The notes beneath the pieces were generated by a model. The model worked only from the letters and a program-made list of their open reading frames with translations. It had not been told where the DNA came from and ran no database searches. Source: Thiospirochaeta perfilievii (GTDB lineage Bacteria; Spirochaetota; Spirochaetia; DSM-2461). Taken from it: a stretch of DNA of 64,000 nt. Both the position numbers and the translations under genes were made by a program. Where the stretch lies: positions 1,550,001-1,614,000 of the forward strand of contig NZ_CP035807.1 in the NCBI RefSeq assembly GCF_008329945.1, given 5' to 3'. Each line of letters opens with the position of its first letter. Position 1 is the first letter of the stretch. Positions 540-48,810 of the stretch are shown here, one piece after another.

Positions 540-2723
540 ATGTTTAATAATGATAAAAAAGGCTATATGACACTCCCTGTAGAGTCAGGACACGAAGAGC
601 TTGTTTTAGATCTGTATAAGAAGTGGAATGCAGATGCACTAAGGGATTCCGATGGGACAACAATGTCCAGAGAGCTAGAAAATCTAGGTAGTGAAGTCTA
701 TTCTACTATCTGTGTTGTGAGAGCACAGCAAGATTTTGCTGATGCGCACCCTGAGTACCTTCACCGAAAGTATCTAATGTCTCACCCTAAAACAGCAACG
801 GAGAAGAAGTTAACAATTAATCTTTTAGATGGCTACAGTAAAGATAAATACGAAGTTGATACAAATAGTGATCCAAAATTATGGTTCGAAGTAAGAAATA
901 GAACAAATTCTTCGATTGTTAATATCGCAAATTGGGAAATTGATACTGAAAAAGGAGTCGCAATAATTAATAATGCAATTCCCTACAATGAGTATACCGT
1001 TTCATTTTTAGCTAGACAAGTTTGGGACTCAGTTTCAATGTATAATCACTTAACTAATGGATGGACTGGGCGTAAAATCAAAAGCCTTGACCCATACCAC
1101 AAAGAGTGTAGGGAGTACTTAGTCTCTTGGTTTAAAAAATGGATTATAGAACATCCCAAAACAACTGTTGTACGTTTTACAACATTTGCATTTAATTTTG
1201 TAATCGATTCAGGAGAAAACAACCAAGATATATATCGAGATTGGCTAGGGTATGGGGAAACAGTTAGTCCAGAAGCACTAATAGATTTTGAGAAAAAGTA
1301 TGGATACAAAATGACCCCAGAGGATTTTGTAGATAATGGATATTACAATGCTACATATAAAAATCCAAGTAAAAAATACTTAGACTGGATGGATTTTATA
1401 AGGGATTTTGTAGTTGGATTTAGTAGTGAATTGGTAGAGATAGCCCATAAAGCAGGTAAAAGAGCAGCGATGTTCCAAGGTGATCACTGGATTGGAACAG
1501 AACCTTTTAGTAAAAAGTATGAACAAATTGGTATTGATATAAACATTGGGGCTGTGGAGGATGGTGTAGCACTAAGAAGATTGTCTGACTCCCCAGGAGA
1601 AATGATAAGAGAAGCACGTTTTTATCCATATTTTTTCCCCGATGTTTTTAAAGAAGGAAATAATCCAGAGGGAGGATCAATGGATAACTGGGTCAAAATA
1701 AGAAGAGCACTTCTTAGATCAAATATCCATAGAATTGGTTATGGAGGATACCTCTCCCTTGCTAATAAATTCCCCAACTTTATTGAACATGTTTCAGATT
1801 TAAGTAGTCAGTTCAATTTATATTTAGAAAATACAAAAGGAACAAAGTCTAAAACAGTTGGACGAAAAGTTGCAATTCTTAATTCCTGGGGAAGTTTAAG
1901 GTCATGGCTTCAAAATGCAGTAAAGGATCAACGTTTTCATATACCTTCTAGACCAGACATTATGGAGTTTGTAGGAAGTAATCCAATGGAGTGTCTATCT
2001 GGCCTTCCCTTTGATATTGAGTTTATAAGTTTTGACGATATATTATCAAATGGAATTAATAGTGATATTGGGGTTATAATCAATATGGGAGACTCAATGA
2101 CTTCATGGACAGGTCATGAACAGTGGGGAAATCCAGAGGTAATTAGCACTTTACGAGAGTTTGTTTCAAATGGAGGAGGTTTCTTAGGAATAGGAGAGCC
2201 ATCATCATATCTTAAGGATGGGAGATTTTTTCAACTTGGAGATATCCTAGGTTTAGAAAAGGAAACAGGCTTAACTATGGGTAGGGTTGCTATGCCATTA
2301 AAGATAGATGAATCCCATATTCTATATCAATCACTAACTGGGCTAGAAGATTTTGGGAAAGATCAAGATGTATACCCTATAGATGAGAAAATATCCATAT
2401 TAAAATCAAATGGTCAACAGATAAACTTATGTGTGAATAGTTATGGAACAGGTCGTTCATCATATATTTCTAATCTTCCATTCACATTAGAAAATTCACG
2501 CTTTTTAGAAAATCTTATATTATGGTTAAATAAAAGTGATTCTAAATTAACTCCATATCTGTCAGATAACCCCTATGTAGATGTTGCTTTTTATCCAGAG
2601 ACATCCATGCTCGCCCTAGTTAACTCAACAAATAAGGAGCAAAGTGTTAAGATATATACAGAGAGAGATGGGTATTTAAAAAGAACTATTAAGGCATATT
2701 CTTGGGATTGGGAAAAGGTGTAG
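540..2723 (+). CDS. GH112 beta-galactoside phosphorylase (galacto-N-biose/lacto-N-biose or galactosyl-rhamnose type)
   Basis: Cytoplasmic phosphorylase expected to cleave a beta-galactosyl disaccharide with phosphate, giving galactose 1-phosphate. The 727-aa length and the N-terminal TLPVESGHEELVLDLYKKW and RDSDGT signatures are those of family GH112. The segment GDHWIGTEPF carries the likely general acid Asp315. A C-terminal beta-rich domain is compatible with the family's multi-domain architecture. The ATG at 540 follows a GGGG ribosome site and lies 2 nt after the permease. Family GH112 includes enzymes for galacto-N-biose/lacto-N-biose and for galactosyl-1,4-rhamnose. The GH88 and DUF2264 neighbours suggest host glycan or pectin side-chain use, but the acceptor sugar is not decidable here. 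Confidence 0.88.
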   Translation: MFNNDKKGYMTLPVESGHEELVLDLYKKWNADALRDSDGTTMSRELENLGSEVYSTICVVRAQQDFADAHPEYLHRKYLMSHPKTATEKKLTINLLDGYSKDKYEVDTNSDPKLWFEVRNRTNSSIVNIANWEIDTEKGVAIINNAIPYNEYTVSFLARQVWDSVSMYNHLTNGWTGRKIKSLDPYHKECREYLVSWFKKWIIEHPKTTVVRFTTFAFNFVIDSGENNQDIYRDWLGYGETVSPEALIDFEKKYGYKMTPEDFVDNGYYNATYKNPSKKYLDWMDFIRDFVVGFSSELVEIAHKAGKRAAMFQGDHWIGTEPFSKKYEQIGIDINIGAVEDGVALRRLSDSPGEMIREARFYPYFFPDVFKEGNNPEGGSMDNWVKIRRALLRSNIHRIGYGGYLSLANKFPNFIEHVSDLSSQFNLYLENTKGTKSKTVGRKVAILNSWGSLRSWLQNAVKDQRFHIPSRPDIMEFVGSNPMECLSGLPFDIEFISFDDILSNGINSDIGVIINMGDSMTSWTGHEQWGNPEVISTLREFVSNGGGFLGIGEPSSYLKDGRFFQLGDILGLEKETGLTMGRVAMPLKIDESHILYQSLTGLEDFGKDQDVYPIDEKISILKSNGQQINLCVNSYGTGRSSYISNLPFTLENSRFLENLILWLNKSDSKLTPYLSDNPYVDVAFYPETSMLALVNSTNKEQSVKIYTERDGYLKRTIKAYSWDWEKV

Positions 2724-6474: not shown

Positions 6475-8730
6475 TTAACTGTTTCTTAATACATTAAGGG
6501 CAGATCCAGCTTTAAACCACTCAATCTGTAGATTGTTAAAAGTATGAACTAGAGGGATATTTACAATCTCTCCATCATCCTTTTTAATCTCTAGTGTAAG
6601 TTCAACACCTGGAGCAAACTCTTTTACCCCCTTAATTGCCAAGATATCTGTTCTGTCAACTCTATCGTAGTCTTCAGGATTTTTAAAAGTTAAAGCTAAA
6701 ACACCCTGCTTTTTAAGATTTGTCTCGTGAATCCTTGCAAAACTTCTAGTAATTACAGCCTTGCAACCTAAAAGTCTAGGACTCATAGCCGCATGTTCAC
6801 GACTAGATCCCTCACCATAATTCTCATCACCAATAATAAACCAACTCTTTCCAGCAGCCTTATACTCTCTAGCAACCTTACTAAAACTATGTTTTTCTCC
6901 TGACAAAATACTAGTAGCTTCCCCAGTTTCGCCAGAAAATGCATTTACAGCACCAGTTAACATGTTATCAGATATATTATCCAAATGTCCCCTATACTGT
7001 AACCAAGGTCCAGCTGGAGAGATATGATCTGTAGTACACTTACCCTTAGCCTTACACAGTAGGAGAGAATCGGTAATATCTTCTCCATCCCATGGAGCAA
7101 ATGGAGTTAACAGCTGTAGTCGTTTAGAATCATCTGCAACTATAACTTGAACCCCTCTACCTTCCGGTTTTTGGTATCCATCTAAGTCTGTAACAAAACC
7201 ATTTTTAGGTAGCTCATCACCAACAGGTGCCTCTAATTTTATATCTCCATTAGGAGTAGAGATTGTATCTGTAATTGGATTAAAGTCTAATCTTCCTGCA
7301 AGAGCCATAGCTGTTACAATCTCTGGAGACCCTATAAAACCTAAAGTCTCTGGGTTTGCATCATTTCTTGCTCTAAAGTTTCTATTAAAACTGTTTATTA
7401 TTGTATTTCTTTCACCCTTTTTAAAATCATCCCTAGACCACTGACCTATACATGGACCACAGGCATTGGCTAGCATAACACCACCAACATCTTCAAAATC
7501 CTGGGTAAATCCATCCCTATCAATAGTCTTTCTAACCTGGGTAGAACCAGGGGAAACAAAGTATGTAGACTTCATTTTAATACCAAGTTTTTTTGCCTGC
7601 TTACAAATCGATGCAGATCGCCCCATATCTTCGTAGGATGAATTTGTACATGACCCAATTAGTCCTGAGGATAGGTTTAATTCCCATCCCTCTTTTGCTC
7701 CATCTTCCTTTACTTTAGAAAGTGGATGGAAAGCATCAGGGGTATGTGGTCCTGTTATATGTGGCTCTAAAGTTGATAGGTCTATCTCTATAACTTTTTC
7801 ATAGTATAAATCTGGGTTTGCTACTACTTCAGAGTCTGGGGTTAATATATCAATATTTTCCATAGCTAATTTTGCTATATCAGCTCTATTTGTAGCCTCT
7901 AAATAGTCCTTCATTCTACTATCGTACTGGAATACAGAGCATGTAGCCCCTAATTCAGCTCCCATATTAGTAATAGTAGCTTTCCCAGTGCAACTTATGG
8001 ATTCACACCCATCACCAAAATACTCTATAATTCTATTGGTTCCACCCTTTACAGTTAACATTCCAATTAATTTAATAATTACATCTTTAGCAGAAGTCCA
8101 GCCATTAAGCTTTCCAATTAATTTTACACCTACAACTGTAGGGTTTTTAACTTCCCAGTTTAATCCAGCCATTACATCTGACGCATCAGCACCACCAACA
8201 CCGGAGGCACACATTCCTAAACCACCAGCATTAGGTGTATGGGAATCTGTTCCTATCATCAGCCCACCAGGGAATGCATAATTCTCAAGTATTACTTGGT
8301 GGATAATTCCTGCTCCAGGTTTCCAAAAACCTAAATTATATCGGCTAGAGGCGGAAGCTAGGAAGTCATAAACCTCTCTGTTTTCATCCATCGCAACAGC
8401 TAAGTCACTATCTTCCCCTTTATATGCTCTAATTAAGTGATCACAATGAACAGTTGCAGGAACGGCAGACTCATCCCTTCCAGATAGCATAAATTGTAAT
8501 ATTGCCATCTGTGCTGTGGCATCCTGCATAGCTACCCTATCAGGATTAAGAAGTAGGAAACTTTCACCTTGCTTAAGATCCTGATTTTTTGGATCATCAA
8601 GATGTCCATACATTATTTTTTCAGCCAAAGTTAAAGGTTTATTTAACCTATCTCTAACAACAGATAAATTCTCTCTTGTCTTATTATAAGTCTTTTCAAC
8701 AAGACCTAAAGTTGTTTCAATTCCCGCCAT
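6475..8730 (-). CDS. acn: Aconitate hydratase
   Basis: Cytoplasmic 4Fe-4S enzyme that interconverts citrate and isocitrate. The 751-aa length and N-terminal architecture match the mitochondrial-type aconitase rather than AcnB. Cluster-ligand cysteines are in GSCTNSS and [21 protein letters not shown] and the C-terminal swivel motif [15 protein letters not shown] are intact. The start is ATG 8730, 13 codons inside the longest frame, because a near-perfect AAGGAGTTAAT ribosome site precedes it. It lies 57 nt after the CDF gene and has its own promoter (8772-8800) overlapped by a CRP-like operator (8752-8767), so control independent of the upstream pair is likely. Confidence 0.96.
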
Positions 8731-8751
8731 ATTAACTCCTTTGTTTAGTGC

Positions 8752-8767
8752 TGTGAAAATATTCACA
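8752..8767. promoter_or_regulatory. Perfect CRP-type palindrome overlapping the acn start point
   Basis: The sequence TGTGAAAATATTCACA matches the CRP/FNR-superfamily half-site pattern TGTGA-N6-TCACA at every defined position, and the flanking GC/GC pair extends the dyad to GCTGTGAA...TTCACAGC. It covers roughly -2 to +14 relative to the predicted start of the promoter at 8772-8800, which is a repressing position. It could also fold as an 8-bp hairpin in the leader. The window encodes two class III cyclases, so a cAMP-responsive regulator is plausible; the regulator itself is not identified. Confidence 0.65.
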
Positions 8768-8771
8768 GCTA

Positions 8772-8800
8772 ATAGTACTATTTATATCTATTTTTGTAAA
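8772..8800 (-). promoter_or_regulatory. Sigma-70 promoter for acn
   Basis: Reading the minus strand, TTTACA (8795-8800), a 17-nt spacer and TACTAT (8772-8777) form a promoter with five of six bases matching the -35 consensus and four of six the -10. The -35 box lies inside the 3' end of the CDF gene. The predicted transcript starts near 8765. Confidence 0.7.
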
Positions 8801-9699
8801 GCATCTGAACATAGACTCTTAGGTTCCACATGAACAGTAACAATTGCATCCTCTCCAAAATGCTCTTTTAACCTATCTTCCACATCATGGGCGATACTAT
8901 GTCCTTTCTTTATTGTAAAATTATCATTAACTCTTATATGAAGAGAGAGAACAACTCTCTTACCAACACTTCTAGTTCTTATATTGTGGGGTTCACTGCA
9001 GTTTGCAGTAGACTCTACTATCTTTTTAATAAGGGAAGTGCTTTCACTACCAAGGGATACATCTAATAAACCAGCGACATTAGTTCTAATTATAGAAAGA
9101 GCCTCTTTCAACAGTATCAAACCTACTATAATACCAGCTAATGGATCCAGAATAACCCATTTCCCTCCCAAGAATATAGCTCCAGCTATACCCAAGGATG
9201 CTCCAATTGATGAAAAGGAGTCAGATCTATGGTGCCATGCGTTGGCAATTACACTAGGACTATTAATTTTTTTTCCGGCATTCTTTGTATATCTATACAA
9301 GATCTCTTTTACGACTACAGATAAGATAGTTATATAAAGCGCCCATATTTTAGGTGGGTGTAAAATCTCCCCATTAAATACAGCTCTAAACATTACAAAT
9401 GAGTCTTTACCTATAACAATACCAGCAAGGGCCAACAAAACACCAACCAGGAAGGCTGAAAATGTCTCAAATTTCCCATGACCAAAATGATGGCTACTAT
9501 CATCTGGTTTTTCTGCAAAACTTAAACCCACATATACAACTAAATCACTTGCTAAGTCTGATAGTGAGTGGAATCCATCGGCAACTAGGGCTAAACTTCC
9601 TGAAAAAAATCCCACTAGTAATTTAACAAAACTAAGCAGAATATTTACAACAGTTCCAACCAGGGTAACTCTCTTTCCATACTTATAATCACTTTCCAT
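8788..9699 (-). CDS. Cation diffusion facilitator (CDF) metal exporter
   Basis: Inner-membrane antiporter for divalent metals (Zn, Fe, Mn or Co). The 303-aa protein has the six-helix CDF core; metal-site residues are in helix 2 (ADGFHSLSDLASD) and helix 5 (WHHRSDSFSSIG), followed by a cytoplasmic domain with HNIRTRSVGKRVVLSLHIRV and VTVHVEP. The HHRSD pattern resembles FieF/MamB-like members. A GAGGAT ribosome site precedes ATG 9699. It starts 9 nt after the M16 protease gene, so the two are co-transcribed. Metal specificity cannot be assigned. Confidence 0.92.
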   Translation of the reverse strand: MESDYKYGKRVTLVGTVVNILLSFVKLLVGFFSGSLALVADGFHSLSDLASDLVVYVGLSFAEKPDDSSHHFGHGKFETFSAFLVGVLLALAGIVIGKDSFVMFRAVFNGEILHPPKIWALYITILSVVVKEILYRYTKNAGKKINSPSVIANAWHHRSDSFSSIGASLGIAGAIFLGGKWVILDPLAGIIVGLILLKEALSIIRTNVAGLLDVSLGSESTSLIKKIVESTANCSEPHNIRTRSVGKRVVLSLHIRVNDNFTIKKGHSIAHDVEDRLKEHFGEDAIVTVHVEPKSLCSDALQK

Positions 9700-15527: not shown

Positions 15528-18251
15528 ATGAAAAAAAAGAATTTAATAAGTTTTTTGATCCCATTTTTTATTGTTTCACTTATAAGTCTATTAGGTGTAT
15601 ATACTTCAACAGTTAAGGATATAGATAATAAACTCTATGATACCGCCCTTAATATAAAGCCTTTATCAAAGATTTCTGGTAAATTCTTAGACATACAAGT
15701 AGATGATAAAGCTTTAGAGTTATTAAAAATGTATCCATTAAAGAGATCTACCCTAGCCGATGGAATGTTAATTTTAAAAGAGTTTGGTGCAGAATCAGTA
15801 CTTCTTGATACCCAGCTAGTAGATCCTAGTACCCCAGGTTTAAACAGTACAAAATTTAATGAACTCCCAGATCTATTTGATCAGGTCAAAAATAACTCAC
15901 TAAGTATTTCGACCCAACTAATTAAAGCTTTTGCCAGTGGGTCTCTTGGAGGAGAGGATGACTCCTTAGAAGTTGCCGATGAGTATATAGAAGAGCTCGA
16001 GTGGGAATATGATGATCTTTTTGATGATTTAAAAGAGAGTACTAAACAGGTTGCTCTAGATTATGATGAATATATTTCAAACATTTTCAAGCTAATGGAT
16101 AATGTTTATGTTACCAACGATTTTGAACTGGGGAAATCCATTCCTAAAGAGTTCGAGACTTATATAGAAGAGACCCAAGCCTTAAAAAATATTGTTATAC
16201 ACTCTGATCCATTTGAGAAGAGATTTGGAACAAACCCAGCAATACAGATGGTAATGGAGAGTGCTAAAGGCTCTGGTTTTGTAGAGACACTGCTAGATGG
16301 AGATGGGAAAACTAGACGATCCCATATTATCCTAAAAAAAGGGGACAAATACTATCCACACCTCTCATTTATCAGTTACTTAGATAGGGTTGGTAACCCA
16401 GAAATCAATGTGTATAAAAACAAAATGGTTTTAAAAGGTGTAAAAGATGGAGATAAAGAACCCTTTGACCTAACTATTCCCCTAGCCTTTGATGGGTCTA
16501 TGGTAATAGATTGGGCTGGGAAAGAGTATAAAAATACATTTAATCACATTAATTTTTATGAACTTTACCATCATGATACTTTAATGTTAGCCCTAAATAA
16601 TTTTATAACTAAAATACTTACCGACCCTACCCTCTCAAAACTTGCAGGAAGGGACTATAACAACGTATATACACTGTTTGAACTATCGGAAGATATAAAA
16701 ACATCTGGAGATAAGTCTAGTATTGATGACTATAGGGATTATAGGGAACAGATAGTAGAAATATCATCGGATTTAATAAAGGGAACAGCAGAAAAACCAA
16801 GTCTGAATAAAGAGTACAGAAGACAGCTTACCCTCTTTCTAGATCAATACGACGTCACAGATGATGAAAAAGGTTCTCTTTTAAAAAATGCTGATGACAT
16901 TGATAATATCTATAACACTGCTAAAGAGAACCTGGATAATTTAATTGATTTTAGAGAGAAGTTTAAAAATAAGATGAAGGATAGTGTTGTAACATTTGGT
17001 TATACCGCAACATCCACATTTGATATTGGATCAAACCCCTTTGAAAAAGAGTACTCTAATATGGGAATATACCCAACAATTTTTAACAACCTTCTATCAA
17101 GAAAATTTATAACCCTTACGCCTATATGGTTATCAATAATCATGGCTTTTATCTTTGCTCTTTTAGCTACTGTAATAATTAAGAGAAATGAAGCAAAAAC
17201 CGCAATAATTCTAGGTCTTTTACTATTTTTAATTATTATATCCCTCTATTTAGGACTTTTTATAGCTACAGGAATCTATATACAGGTTTTAATACCAGCT
17301 CTTAGTTTTATTCTAGTCTTTATACAGAAGATTTCAGGGAAATTATTGTCTACATCTAAGGATAAAGCTTTTATAAAAAATGCATTTGGACAATATCTCT
17401 CTGAGGATGTTATTAAAGATATAATAAATGATCCTTCTAAACTAAAACTTGGAGGAGAAGAGAAGGAGATTACAGCTTTTTTTACAGATGTAAAAGGGTT
17501 TTCAACTATCTCTGAAAAGTTAACCCCAGATGAGTTAGTTTCCCTATTAAATGAGTACCTAACAGCTATGAGTGATATAGCCCTAGAACATAAGGGAACA
17601 ATAGATAAGTATGAGGGGGATGCAATTATTGGGTTCTTTGGAGCTCCAGCTCCCCTCCCCGACCACGCTACTAAGGCTGTTTTAGCAGCAATACGAATGA
17701 AGCAAGTAGAAAAAAAGCTAAATGTATCATTTAAAGAGAGGGGAATGACTCCATCCCCGGTAAATACCAGAATAGGAATTAACTCAGGCCCATGTGTTGT
17801 AGGAAATATGGGGACTCCTAAAAAAATGGATTATACCATGATGGGAAGCGATGTAAATATAGCAGCAAGACTCGAGGGAGTGAATAAACAGTATGGGACA
17901 TGGATATTAGCAAGTGAAAGAACAATGGATAAGGCTGAAGATATATTTTTATCTAGAAGACTAGATAGAGTTAGGGTTGTTGGTATTAATAAACCTATAA
18001 GACTTTATAACCCAATTGCTGTAAAAACAGAAGCTACAGAGAGTGAGATTACTCTTGTAGAGAAATTTGAAATAGCACTAACAAGTTTTGAAGAGCGAAA
18101 TTGGAAGGAAGCCAAAAATCTTTTTAAAGATGTACTTAAAATTGCCCCAGAGGATAAACCATCGATTAGATACATTCAATTATGTGATAAATTTATTATT
18201 AAAGAACCAGAGCAAGATTGGGATGGTGTATTCAACCTAACTTCAAAATAA
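15528..18251 (+). CDS. CHASE2 sensor adenylate cyclase
   Basis: A 907-aa inner-membrane cyclase making cAMP. Order: N-terminal anchor (residues 8-26), long extracytoplasmic CHASE2 domain (about 30-510), a cluster of membrane helices (about 535-600), then a class III catalytic domain (about 640-830). Metal Asp residues are in FFTDVKGF and YEGDAI, the adenine-specifying Lys and Asp are in DKYEGD and KKMDYT, and the transition-state Asn/Arg are in VNIAARLE, so the enzyme looks active and ATP-specific. The C-terminal tail EEPEQDWDGVF-like ending also occurs in the cyclase at 28.9 kb. An AAAGG site precedes ATG 15528. A 13-bp hairpin ends the unit. Confidence 0.94.
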   Translation: MKKKNLISFLIPFFIVSLISLLGVYTSTVKDIDNKLYDTALNIKPLSKISGKFLDIQVDDKALELLKMYPLKRSTLADGMLILKEFGAESVLLDTQLVDPSTPGLNSTKFNELPDLFDQVKNNSLSISTQLIKAFASGSLGGEDDSLEVADEYIEELEWEYDDLFDDLKESTKQVALDYDEYISNIFKLMDNVYVTNDFELGKSIPKEFETYIEETQALKNIVIHSDPFEKRFGTNPAIQMVMESAKGSGFVETLLDGDGKTRRSHIILKKGDKYYPHLSFISYLDRVGNPEINVYKNKMVLKGVKDGDKEPFDLTIPLAFDGSMVIDWAGKEYKNTFNHINFYELYHHDTLMLALNNFITKILTDPTLSKLAGRDYNNVYTLFELSEDIKTSGDKSSIDDYRDYREQIVEISSDLIKGTAEKPSLNKEYRRQLTLFLDQYDVTDDEKGSLLKNADDIDNIYNTAKENLDNLIDFREKFKNKMKDSVVTFGYTATSTFDIGSNPFEKEYSNMGIYPTIFNNLLSRKFITLTPIWLSIIMAFIFALLATVIIKRNEAKTAIILGLLLFLIIISLYLGLFIATGIYIQVLIPALSFILVFIQKISGKLLSTSKDKAFIKNAFGQYLSEDVIKDIINDPSKLKLGGEEKEITAFFTDVKGFSTISEKLTPDELVSLLNEYLTAMSDIALEHKGTIDKYEGDAIIGFFGAPAPLPDHATKAVLAAIRMKQVEKKLNVSFKERGMTPSPVNTRIGINSGPCVVGNMGTPKKMDYTMMGSDVNIAARLEGVNKQYGTWILASERTMDKAEDIFLSRRLDRVRVVGINKPIRLYNPIAVKTEATESEITLVEKFEIALTSFEERNWKEAKNLFKDVLKIAPEDKPSIRYIQLCDKFIIKEPEQDWDGVFNLTSK

Positions 18252-18364: not shown

Positions 18365-18586
18365 ATGTTCGATGTAGGTTTAATTATAACACTAGTAGGA
18401 ATGCTTGGAGTTTTTGTTTTTCTTATTTTACTCGTTTTCTCAATGAGTATTATGTCAACAATCATTCAGAAGGTATTACCAGAAAAAGAGGTTGTGGTTC
18501 CGGTAAAAGCAAAACCGACCCAAGAACTTGAAATTGCAATAGCTATTGCGGCCATCAAAAGCTTATCTTCCAAGGAGAGTCACTAA
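18365..18586 (+). CDS. oadG: Sodium-pump decarboxylase gamma subunit (OadG-like)
   Basis: A 73-aa single-span membrane protein. One helix (IITLVGMLGVFVFLILLVFS) is followed by a basic and acidic linker and an alanine-rich C-terminal tail, the standard OadG plan of membrane anchor plus a tail that binds the alpha subunit. I place the start at ATG 18365, preceded by CAGGAG; the frame extends upstream only through the promoter. Its stop overlaps the alpha-subunit start (TAATG). Confidence 0.85.
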   Translation: MFDVGLIITLVGMLGVFVFLILLVFSMSIMSTIIQKVLPEKEVVVPVKAKPTQELEIAIAIAAIKSLSSKESH

Positions 18587-20373
18587 TGAAAAAACGTATT
18601 AATTTTATGGTTACCGCTTTCAGAGACGGTTTTCAATCTGTTTATGGAGCCAGGGTACTCTCAAAAGACTTTCTACCTGCTGTAGAAGCAGCATCAAATG
18701 CGGGAATTAGACATTTTGAAGCTGGAGGAGGAGCAAGATTTCAGGCTCCATTTTTCTACTGTAATGAAAATGGTTTTGACGTTATGGACGATTTTAGAAA
18801 GGCAACAGGACCTGATGCTAATCTTCAAACCCTTTCTAGGGGTGTAAATGTTGTTGGTCTTGCATCACAACCTAGAGATATTATTAAACTACATGCAGAC
18901 TTATTTAAAAAACATGGAATGACTACTATAAGAAACTTTGATGCCTTAAATGATGTTAACAATCTTATATACTCTGGAGAGTGTATTGTAAATGCAGGAT
19001 TAAAGCATGAGGTTTGTATAACCATGATGGAGTTACCCCCAGGGTGTGAAGGTGCTCATACACCTGAATTCTATGCAGGAGTTTTAAGAAAAATTCTTGA
19101 TGCAAATATAAAATTTGATTCAATATGCTTTAAAGACGCTTCTGGAACAAGTACTCCAGCTAAAGTTTACGACACAATAAAAGAGGCTAGAAATCTTTTA
19201 GGTGATGATATGAATATAGCATTTCACTCCCATGAAACAGCGGGAATCTGTGTTATGCAATACAAGGCAGCCCTGGAGGCAGGAGCTTCCCAAATTGACC
19301 TTTCTTTAGACCCTGTATCTGGAGGAACTTGCCAACCAGATGTTATGACTATGTGGCACGCACTTAAAGGCTCAAGGTTCGATTTAGGAATTGACCCATA
19401 TAAAATAATTGAAGTAGAAGAGACATTAAAAGATTGTCTTAAAGATTACTATATGCCTCCAGAGGCAAAGGCTGTAAACCCATTAATTCCATTCTCTCCT
19501 CTACCTGGAGGTGCGTTAACCGCAAATACTCAGATGCTTAGAGATAACAACCTTATGGATAAGTATGGAGAGATAACAAAGGCTATGGGAGAGGTAGTTG
19601 AAAGAGGTGGTTTTGGAACCTCTGTTACCCCTGTATCCCAATTCTATTTCCAACAGGCATTTAACAATGTTATGTTTGGACCTTGGAAAAAAATTGCCGA
19701 TGGTTACGGGAAAATGGTTTTAGGTTACTTTGGAGAGACTCCATGTGCACCAGATCCAAAACTGGTAGAAATAGCCCAGGAGCAACTAGGTTTAGACCCA
19801 ACAACAGAGAAGGTTGTTGATATAAACGGTAGAGACTCTTCTTTAGGTATTAAAGCTGCAAAAACAATGTTAGAAGATGCAAACCTACCTATAACAGATG
19901 AGAATATCTTTATTGCAGCAGCATGTAGAGAGAAGGGAATTCTATTCCTTGAGGGAAAAGCTACTACAAATATTAGAAAAATTGATAAAAGCTCATCAAC
20001 AGCTGACGCTAACGGAGAGTATACTGTTTCGGTTAATGGTAAAAAATATGCCATAGAGATGAAGAGTGGAAAAGCTGTTGTTAACGGAAAAGAGTACAGT
20101 GTTGATGTAGAGAATGGAATCGATAAGAATCAGACTGCTCCTACAATCTCTGGAGATGGAGATACAACAACAGCTCCACTACCAGGATTAGTTTTAAGAG
20201 TCAGTGTTGAAGCTGGTGCAACAGTTGAGGAGGGTGATGAGATTATGGTATTAGAAGCCATGAAGATGGAGTCCCCAATAACAGCTAAAAAGACAGGAAT
20301 TGTCGCTAGAATTAGCGTTAGCCAAGGCGATCAGGTAACAGCAGGACAAGAGCTGTTTACAATACAAGGATAG
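18586..20373 (+). CDS. oadA: Biotin-dependent sodium-pump decarboxylase alpha subunit (oxaloacetate decarboxylase type)
   Basis: A 595-aa cytoplasmic carboxyltransferase fused to a biotin carrier. The N-terminal TIM barrel has FRDGFQS (metal Asp), FKDASGT (carboxylated Lys) and FHSHETAG (His ligands). The C-terminal biotinyl domain has the EAMKMES lysine after a proline-poor linker. The barrel entry reads HFEAGGGARFQAP where typical OadA has LEVWGGATFDA, so this is a divergent branch and the substrate, oxaloacetate by context, is less certain than the mechanism. It overlaps oadG by one base and precedes oadB by 3 nt. Confidence 0.87.
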   Translation: MKKRINFMVTAFRDGFQSVYGARVLSKDFLPAVEAASNAGIRHFEAGGGARFQAPFFYCNENGFDVMDDFRKATGPDANLQTLSRGVNVVGLASQPRDIIKLHADLFKKHGMTTIRNFDALNDVNNLIYSGECIVNAGLKHEVCITMMELPPGCEGAHTPEFYAGVLRKILDANIKFDSICFKDASGTSTPAKVYDTIKEARNLLGDDMNIAFHSHETAGICVMQYKAALEAGASQIDLSLDPVSGGTCQPDVMTMWHALKGSRFDLGIDPYKIIEVEETLKDCLKDYYMPPEAKAVNPLIPFSPLPGGALTANTQMLRDNNLMDKYGEITKAMGEVVERGGFGTSVTPVSQFYFQQAFNNVMFGPWKKIADGYGKMVLGYFGETPCAPDPKLVEIAQEQLGLDPTTEKVVDINGRDSSLGIKAAKTMLEDANLPITDENIFIAAACREKGILFLEGKATTNIRKIDKSSSTADANGEYTVSVNGKKYAIEMKSGKAVVNGKEYSVDVENGIDKNQTAPTISGDGDTTTAPLPGLVLRVSVEAGATVEEGDEIMVLEAMKMESPITAKKTGIVARISVSQGDQVTAGQELFTIQG

Positions 20374-20376
20374 AAT

Positions 20377-21687
20377 ATGAATTTACTACTTCAAATAAAT
20401 ATACCAGACGCCCTAAGGGAAGTTTGGAAGTCCACAGGGATTGTAAACTTTACCCTTGGGCAGATTATAATGATTTGCGTAGGCCTTATCCTTCTTTTCT
20501 TAGCAATAAAAAAAGATTTTGAACCTCTATTATTAGTTCCTATTGGTATGGGAGCAATATTTGCAAATATCCCAACTGCAGGGATCGCTGATCCAACGGT
20601 ACATTTTATTAAGTCTATAAACCCTGAAACATTGTCACATTATGGTTCAACCGTTGCAGGGAAGGCAGTAGAGTTAGGAATTACAGGAAGTAAGGTAAGT
20701 GAATTTATAGGAATTGCTGAGGGACATTTTACAGCCTTTGGAGGACTAGTAGGACAGTTATACGGTTTTGGAGTTGAAAGTGGCCTATTCCCATTAATTA
20801 TTTTTATGGGTGTTGGTGCTATGACTGATTTTGGACCACTTCTTGCAAACCCTAAAACAGCACTATTAGGTGGAGCGGCTCAGTTTGGAATTTTTGCCAC
20901 GCTTTTAGGTGCATTAGGTTTAAGCCAACTGGGGATCTTAGATTTTACACTACCTGAAGCTGGAGCAATTGGTATTATAGGTGGAGCCGATGGTCCTACC
21001 GCTATATTTTTAGCATCTAAACTAGCTCCCAACCTTCTAGGAGCCATAGCTGTTGCTGCTTACTCCTATATGGCGCTAGTTCCAATAATACAGCCACCAA
21101 TTATGAGGCTACTAACAACTAAGGAAGAGCGAAAAATTAAGATGGTACAACTTAGACATGTTTCTAAAAGAGAGAAAATAATATTTCCTATAGTTGTATT
21201 AATCCTCTGTACAATACTTCTTCCAAGTGCAACTCCTCTTATTGGAGCCCTAATGTTTGGAAACTTAGCAAGAGAGTGTGGTAAGGTTGATAGACTTGCA
21301 AGCACTATGCAAAATGAACTAATAAATATAGTTACTATATTTTTAGGTCTCTCTGTTGGATCAAAAATGGAAGCAGAAAAGTTCCTAGATCCTAAAACCC
21401 TAGGTATTTTAGCACTAGGTCTAGTTGCATTTAGTATTGGAACATCATTTGGAGTTATTATGGCAAAAATAATGAATAAATTTCTAAAAACTCCAATTAA
21501 TCCGCTTATTGGAGCTGCGGGAGTTTCTGCAGTACCAATGGCAGCAAGGGTTGCAAATAAGGTAGGTCTAGAAGAAGACTCGTCGAACTACCTTTTAATG
21601 CATGCAATGGGTCCAAACGTTGCTGGAGTTGTAGGTTCAGCTGTAGCGGCAGGTATACTATTAGCCCTAATCCCAGCATTAATGTAA
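20377..21687 (+). CDS. oadB: Sodium-pump decarboxylase beta subunit
   Basis: A 436-aa multispanning membrane subunit that decarboxylates carboxybiotin and exports Na+. Family motifs are [43 protein letters not shown] and the C-terminal [23 protein letters not shown], with the membrane Asp in GGADGPT. It closes the oadGAB operon and is followed by a strong intrinsic terminator. Confidence 0.95.
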
Positions 21688-27673: not shown

Positions 27674-28938
27674 ATGGGGAGTTCAACTTTTGATAATATA
27701 TTAAGAGAGAGGGAGATAATTAATGAAAAAAGGGTAGCCTATATTCGTTTTTTCCTTGCATCTCTAAGTATTTAAAGTTTGTAGTAATATTTTTTGACTA
27801 TATTTATGTAATTTCCAATTTCTTATTTGATCCTTCAATTACCAGCGAACCTAAAACTATAGCATGGTATGCTCTTATGGGAACAATCGTTTTCTATTTA
27901 ATCAATTTACTTCGATATTCTAAAGCTAGTACCATATATTCAGGCTTTTTATCAATAATTATTTTTGTAGGAGTAAGTCTCTATTTTAAAGTTCCAATTG
28001 TTGAAATAATACCTCTGCTTTTTGCTCAGGTAGTTATACTGCTAATAGGTTACTCTATAACATCTAAAAAAATGATGATGGAAAGGTATCTACCACCACA
28101 ACTGATAGGAGAGTTATATAAAGAAAATGTTAGCTTGGAACCAGGGGGAAAAAATCAAAAGGTAACAATTCTATTTTCTGATATAAGGTCATTCACCACT
28201 ATCTCCGAATCTATGTCAGCTGCAGAAACGGTAAGTTTTCTAAATGAGTACCTATCCTTAATGACAGATATAATTTTCTCACAAAAGGGAACTCTTGATA
28301 AATTCATAGGTGATGGAATAATGACAATATTTGGAGCTCCAATTGAGGGAAAAGATGATTCATTAAGAGCTGTAAATACTGGGATACTGATGAATAAAGC
28401 TTTGAAAGAATTTAATATAAAATACCAAAATATAAAACAACCAATTCAAATAGGTATTGGGATTCATACAGGGAATGTAATTGCTGGAAATATAGGTTCG
28501 GATAAAAGACTAGACTATACAATTATTGGAGATAATGTAAATTTATCATCTCGTATAGAAGGATTAACACGACACTATTACTGTCCCCTACTTATTTCCG
28601 ATTCGACATATAGTGAGCTATTAGAAATAGATATTGAAAAAAATTTTATTTGCAGAGAAGTAGATAATGTTAGAGTAAAGGGAAAATCCAGTGTAGTAAA
28701 AATTTACGAAGTTATGCCCTTTGAAAATAGTGATGAAAAAAGAGTGGTTACAGAAAAAAAAGAACTATTTGAGAGAGGTCTAAAACTTTACAGAAAGAAG
28801 GAGTTTACTAGAGCTATTTTTGAGTTTGAGAGATTAAAAGATGATAAACTCTCCTTATTATATATAGAGCGATGTATAAAATATTTAGATAACCCTGAAG
28901 AACACTGGGATGCAATCTACACGATGAAAACAAAATAA
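27674..28938 (+). pseudogene. Class III adenylate cyclase with a 1-nt frameshift near the N-terminus
   Basis: ATG 27674, with a strong AGGGGAG ribosome site, opens a frame that ends at TAA 27773 after 33 codons (MGSSTFDNILREREIINEKR...). One base would restore ILKFVVIFFDY, which reads in another frame straight into the 353-aa frame starting at ATG 27877. The lesion is in a run of three T (27771-27773). The rest has membrane helices and an intact catalytic domain: LFSDIRSF, DKFIGDG, RLDYT and VNLSSRIEG supply metal, adenine and transition-state residues. It ends EEHWDAIY, like the CHASE2 cyclase tail. It may be a pseudogene, a contingency site, a truncated but active enzyme from 27877, or an assembly error. 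Confidence 0.8.
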
Positions 28939-48403: not shown

Positions 48404-48680
48404 TTATCCTAAATAGGACTCTAGGCCCTCTTTGTCTAGAATCTCTATGTAGTTATCCTTTTTACGTATAACTCCATCTATTTGCATCTTAGAGATCTCC
48501 CTAGAGACAGCCTCCCTGGAGACTGAAATCTTATTTACTAATAGAGAGATTTTATTCTCATTTAAACTAGAACTGTTATATAACAACAGATAGGCTAGCT
48601 TCTCCCTTACTGTTTTTAGGGATAATATTTCAATCTTCTTTGTTACCTTGGCAATCTTTTTATAGACTTGTACAGTATAC
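48404..48680 (-). pseudogene. C-terminal half of a Crp/Fnr regulator (5'-truncated)
   Basis: Read on the minus strand, the frame encodes KKIEILSLKTVREKLAYLLL and then a helix-turn-helix (LLVNKISVSREAVSREISKMQIDGVIRKKDNYIEIL), the DNA-binding end of a Crp/Fnr protein. The in-frame segment upstream of TTG 48586 continues the homology, so that TTG is not the true start. The nucleotide-binding domain is missing: homology stops at about 48675, where the terminal CRISPR repeat begins. It is either a dead remnant or, less likely, a solo DNA-binding domain. Confidence 0.8.
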
Positions 48681-48810
48681 GATAGTGAACTTAAATGCGA
48701 TAGTTTTCAAGGATAAATGAGATTTCTAAACTACCTATGCGGTAGTGAACTGGAAAGAATAGTTATTGCTTTTACAAACAGATTTCTAAGCTACCCAGCA
48801 GGGATCCCCA
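48663..48810 (-). CRISPR. Relic type I-F CRISPR array: three repeats, two 32-bp spacers
   Basis: On the minus strand the middle repeat (48723-48750) reads GTTCACTACCGCAT then AGGTAGTTTAGAAA: 28 bp, with a 6-bp stem ACTACC/GGTAGT, and strongly like the type I-F consensus (GTTCACTGCC... ...CTAAGAAA). Spacers are 48691-48722 and 48751-48782, both exactly 32 nt, the type I-F size. The outer repeats are damaged: 48663-48690 keeps only the 5' half (GTTCACTATCGTATA) and 48783-48810 only the 3' half (GGTAGCTTAGAAA). No cas effector genes are in the window, so the array is probably inactive. Confidence 0.88.

Follow-up and report, generated by a model that had tools for sequence, protein, structure and literature searches.

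A putative Rex-family operator over the predicted aconitase start point of Thiospirochaeta perfilievii, shared with a rex-serC-serA operon

The aconitase promoter and its inverted repeat

Here we describe the promoter region of an aconitase gene within a 64-kb stretch of DNA from the spirochaete Thiospirochaeta perfilievii (the window, to which all positions refer unless a contig or locus is named). The gene lies on the minus strand (6475-8730) and encodes a mitochondrial-type enzyme of 751 aa, identified with Pfam and with TIGR01340, for which it scores 1093 bits against a cut-off of 825. Its ATG at 8730 is preceded by a ribosome-binding site that can be read directly from the sequence (AAAGGAG, 8736-8742, minus strand) and, after a gap of 19 nt, by a perfect inverted repeat at 8750-8769, the arms of which, GCTGTGAA (8750-8757) and TTCACAGC (8762-8769), enclose a 4-nt centre, AATA; on the minus strand the repeat reads GCTGTGAATATTTTCACAGC. 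A sigma70-like minus-strand promoter, TTTACA-N17-TACTAT (8800-8772), lies immediately upstream and matches the consensus at 9 of 12 positions, with its -35 element at 8795-8800 and its -10 element at 8772-8777. The repeat begins 2 nt past the -10 element, and this placement of the promoter puts the predicted start point of transcription inside the repeat. A longer open reading frame that opens with GTG at 8766 is not a likely start for aconitase, because alignments with homologues begin at the ATG.

The promoter region also contains the 3′ end of the upstream gene on the same strand, which encodes a CDF-family cation transporter (8788-9699, TIGR01297 over its cut-off) and is not thought to belong to the circuit proposed below. 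An intrinsic terminator of the transporter gene was considered and rejected, as the hairpin is followed by no T-run and a terminator scan gave no call. On the far side of aconitase, a lacto-N-biose phosphorylase family enzyme sits beside a DUF2264 protein (540-2723, plus strand), a sugar-utilisation cluster lying just downstream-facing of the aconitase gene.

The first-pass annotation of this DNA had taken the inner part of the repeat, TGTGAAAATATTCACA (8752-8767), for a CRP-like operator in a repressing position, through which cAMP would act on aconitase. The operator itself holds up, as the core of a larger 8+8 palindrome, and so does its position over the predicted start of a conserved promoter. 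With one mismatch allowed, the 16-mer pattern was found 3 times in the window against 1.6 expected, which is not beyond chance. What marks the palindrome as more than a chance occurrence is its placement at the start point and the fact that two relatives in the genus have kept both it and the promoter. In these relatives (G001 and G002, with assemblies of 81% and 71% completeness) the box occupies the same position and reads TTGTGAATAATTTCACAG and TTGTGAATATTTTCACAA, and the aligned aconitase promoters are TTTACA-N17-TATTAT and TTTACA-N17-TAGAAT, with the -35 hexamer kept in both and the -10 hexamer in the same place.

A Rex-type box and the rex-serC-serA operon

The inner bases of the palindrome, AA..TT, extend it to TGTGAA-N4-TTCACA, the core of the published operator of Rex, a repressor family that senses NADH (PMC2883068, PMC6391272). 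Measured against the published consensus TTGTGAA-N4-TTCACAA, the aconitase box of the window matches at 12 of 14 positions and those of the relatives at 13 and 14, TTGTGAATATTTTCACAA fitting at all specified positions, and the overlap with a promoter or start point that characterises Rex operators is found here with respect to the predicted start point. The shorter pattern GTGAA-N4-TTCAC is present in only 4, 7 and 4 copies in the three genomes of the genus. In every one of them a copy stands at aconitase and a second overlies the start point of one particular rex paralogue, and no further intergenic copy is shared by all three; most of the remainder fall within coding sequences.

T. perfilievii has four proteins of the Rex family, each carrying the RKD motif in its DNA-binding domain. 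The paralogue that carries the conserved box lies about 120 kb from aconitase (contig C1, 1,679,441-1,680,085), with the box at G000 C1:1679411 behind a near-consensus promoter. It combines the Rex winged helix (PF06971) with a Rossmann domain (PF02629), scores 167 bits with the NCBIfam Rex model NF003995 (cut-off 126) and matches PDB chains of solved Rex structures with E of about 1e-30. The next genes downstream are serC and serA, throughout the three genomes of the genus (L198 4412-7384 on G000:C1; L199; L200). Two of the other rex paralogues have neighbours of a different kind, one lying beside a 4Fe-4S hydrogenase-like protein (L129 1042-3041) and one beside a NuoE-like subunit and a histidine-kinase-like ATPase (L128 305-2106), suggesting that each Rex may serve a redox niche of its own.

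The serC-linked protein keeps the NAD(H)-type Rossmann motif, GMGRLG and the next Asp, a feature compatible with nucleotide binding only. The switch described for the Rex of T. aquaticus comprises R16, Y98 and D188 (PMC6125430), and at these positions all three genomes of the genus have V, K and F instead, the equivalent residues varying in the rest of the clade. The set also varies among Rex proteins elsewhere, for example with Met for Arg in Thermotoga (PMC6125430), and it defines the described mechanism rather than membership of the Rex family. With V, K and F at the switch positions, NADH sensing by the Rex of this genus is therefore uncertain.

The rex paralogue was used as the query in a search of 393 Spirochaetota genomes, and the best loci were then examined. 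The resulting 24 clade proteins, those of the genus included, form one branch (98/92). Among the best loci of the 21 clade members outside the genus, serC is the next gene in 18, and 13 have a box that agrees with the consensus at 12 or more of its 14 positions, where shuffled sequence would yield 0.08; in some members the boxes are far upstream (-90 to -150) or paired. A gene order of rex-serC-serA or rex-serC, with single or double boxes in front, recurs across Spirochaetota (L214-L242). TGTGAA-N4-TTCACA occurs 26 times in a 28-genome set against 3 times in the reversed control, often at rex-serC and in one genome (G404) directly before serC-serA.

A weight matrix trained solely on Rex-operon boxes from outside the genus gives the aconitase box of the window a score of 23.8, and those of the relatives 24.9 and 23.5, compared with a training median of 22.7 and a score of 6.5 for the E. 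coli CRP consensus core. In 4 Mb of randomly generated DNA with a comparable composition, no site scored as well as the window's aconitase box. Since the genus contributed nothing to the matrix, the box at aconitase matches this clade's Rex operator out of sample. Lower scores, of 19.1, 19.1 and 13.5, go to the rex boxes of the genus itself.

Extent of the regulon and alternative readings

We propose that the palindrome is a Rex-family operator whose most likely binder is the serC-linked Rex paralogue, repressing both aconitase and its own operon, and we give this reading a probability of roughly 0.85. The choice of one Rex among four would follow from the box at that paralogue's own promoter. 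Its role as the binder, repression as the outcome of binding and the NADH/NAD+ ratio as the signal are all inferred.

The regulon appears small, judging from the one-mismatch scan of the three genus genomes, in which boxes were not enriched over control. One relative, G001, has the box TTGTGAAATATTTTACAG about 13 nt before its citrate synthase gene, and another placed exactly between TTGACA and TATAAT ahead of an nrpR-like gene followed by the glutamate synthase gene gltB (G001:C45, L267 about 2069-2082). The orthologous nrpR-gltB promoter in the window's genome is without a box, and the G001 copy would be species-specific at best. The other one-mismatch matches that we examined, beside asnB or within coding sequences, were chance-like and were discarded. 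Beyond the genus, the sequence ahead of aconitase could be read in eleven other family members, of which nine have no box there; in the remaining two the box is degenerate, with 11 of 14 matches (G007), or agrees at 12 of 14 with only the left half intact (G014). Among the matches examined, the Rex proteins of family members fall outside the serC-linked clade. Because these family members mostly lack the aconitase box and their examined Rex proteins belong elsewhere, the rex-serC-serA circuit is probably the older one and control of aconitase a local addition to it.

That the operator is a Rex site bound by another of the four paralogues, or by several in competition, is improbable. The shared RKD motif would allow it; against it, no comparable box was seen before the other three rex genes, and any aconitase box is degenerate at best in family members whose Rex belongs to another clade.

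The idea from the first-pass annotation that a cAMP-binding Crp/Fnr homologue represses aconitase through a CRP-type operator fares worse, and we regard it as very improbable. It drew on the TGTGA-N6-TCACA core, which is present, and on two class III cyclases in the window, which are indeed there (15528-18251 and 27877-28938); the genome also encodes Crp/Fnr-family proteins with a helix-turn-helix (L122, L123 and L124), one of which, L122, has a recognition helix, SREALSR, that looks CRP-like by eye. Against this, a CRP-type regulon is not seen, exact TGTGA-N6-TCACA occurring 2 times in the 3.7-Mb genome and 3 times in the reversed control, a scarcity that the annotation itself had named as telling against its claim. 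The inner AA..TT and the copy at the rex promoter favour Rex, as do the matrix scores given above. A Crp protein with a matching helix was the other point on which the idea was said to depend, and L122 is a candidate for it in this genome; neither of the relatives with a conserved box has a clear L122 orthologue, the best matches being 31% and 27%, although the incompleteness of the two assemblies (81% and 71% complete) weakens this point. The second exact copy lies within coding sequence, in the first codons of the L122 gene itself (G000:C1:2551740-2552342; L122 1201-1803, minus strand), where it may possibly serve self-regulation or be due to chance. A further Crp/Fnr-type protein is represented in the window by its C-terminal half alone (48419-48682, minus strand), with the helix-turn-helix SVSREAVSREI. 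No N-terminal half accompanies it and the upstream frame looks like the remains of a transposon, so that a mobile element seems to have disrupted this gene of the Crp family. The first of the two cyclases, of the CHASE2 type, is the neighbour of genes for the alpha and beta subunits of a sodium-pumping oxaloacetate decarboxylase (18586-21687, plus strand).

An RNA hairpin controlling stability or translation from the 5′ end of the aconitase message is scarcely plausible, for although the leader can form a hairpin of 8 bp (z = -2.9) that would stand at the 5′ end, and G001 keeps a palindrome with 10-nt arms in which the outer pairs have changed, the rex boxes of the genus retain just 5 clean pairs, the G001 nrpR-gltB box lies inside a -35/-10 spacer and so would be untranscribed, boxes elsewhere in the clade are distant or paired, and the conserved letters fit the site of a known protein.

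Comparison with known systems and the proposed circuit

In Staphylococcus aureus and other Gram-positive bacteria the Rex operator is TTGTGAA-W4-TTCACAA (PMC2883068), and the aconitase box shares with it the palindrome, the spacing, the A/T centre and the repressing position over promoter or start point. The targets differ: those known in such bacteria are fermentation and anaerobic genes, whereas the spirochaete, which has four Rex paralogues, would have aconitase and rex-serC-serA under Rex. In Caldicellulosiruptor a Rex box lies upstream of serC-serA, demonstrated by gel shift in C. bescii (PMC6391272) and conserved in that genus (PMC8579813). The spirochaete case shares this box before serC-serA, but in Caldicellulosiruptor rex is not reported to head the serine operon and aconitase is unlisted, whereas here rex heads the operon and aconitase shares its box. 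The acn-icd-rex operon of Caproicibacterium lactatifermentans has a predicted Rex site, TTGTGAATGGATTGACAA, before aconitase (PMC9600882), as is the case here, both aconitase sites being predictions; there, however, rex is within the aconitase operon, while in T. perfilievii it belongs to the serine operon and aconitase stands apart. The E. coli CRP operator has the TGTGA-N6-TCACA core in common with the present box but differs in its inner bases, its genome-wide frequency and the regulator gene linked to it.

On a practical level, users should be aware that TGTGA-N6-TCACA alone cannot separate CRP from Rex. The same ambiguity arises between ArcR and Rex in S. aureus, where Rex represses genes carrying the TTGTGAA-type box and the Crp-family protein ArcR binds in vitro upstream of genes such as ldh1 and ald1 without significant influence on their transcription (PMC2883068). 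Rex control of aconitase and of serCA has been predicted or shown, separately, in Firmicutes. In the open-access literature searched we found no report of rex-serC-serA across spirochaetes, of the pairing of serCA with aconitase, or of the altered switch residues, and the rex-serC-serA architecture and the pairing of aconitase with serCA look new, a provisional assessment.

In the circuit that we envisage, a Rex dimer would sit over the start point, just downstream of the -10 element, and would block initiation of transcription at both aconitase and rex-serC-serA. A ligand that frees Rex from the DNA would let the two rise together, so that one signal, probably redox, likely controls both aconitase and serine biosynthesis. 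The SerC step of that pathway uses glutamate. The circuit could thereby couple the supply of 2-oxoglutarate and glutamate, through aconitase and in one relative citrate synthase, to serine synthesis. In known Rex proteins NADH releases the protein and NAD+ favours DNA binding (PMC2883068); derepression of NADH-producing steps at high NADH is a logic that is not obviously sensible. A more speculative extension, which we think unlikely though worth stating, is that a Spirochaetota-wide Rex subfamily acts as a dedicated regulator of amino-acid anabolism, covering rex-serC-serA, with aconitase added in the genus and citrate synthase and nrpR-gltB in one species, and that in the genus the canonical R16/Y98/D188 switch has been lost, with NAD(H) sensed differently, in the opposite sense, or replaced by another ligand.

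For T. perfilievii, a cAMP account of aconitase control gives way to one centred on a putative redox repressor. More broadly, the picture is of a Rex clade spread across the spirochaetes as the first gene of a serine-biosynthesis operon, with a conserved box through which it is predicted to bind its own promoter, and with a lineage-specific reach that would extend to aconitase.
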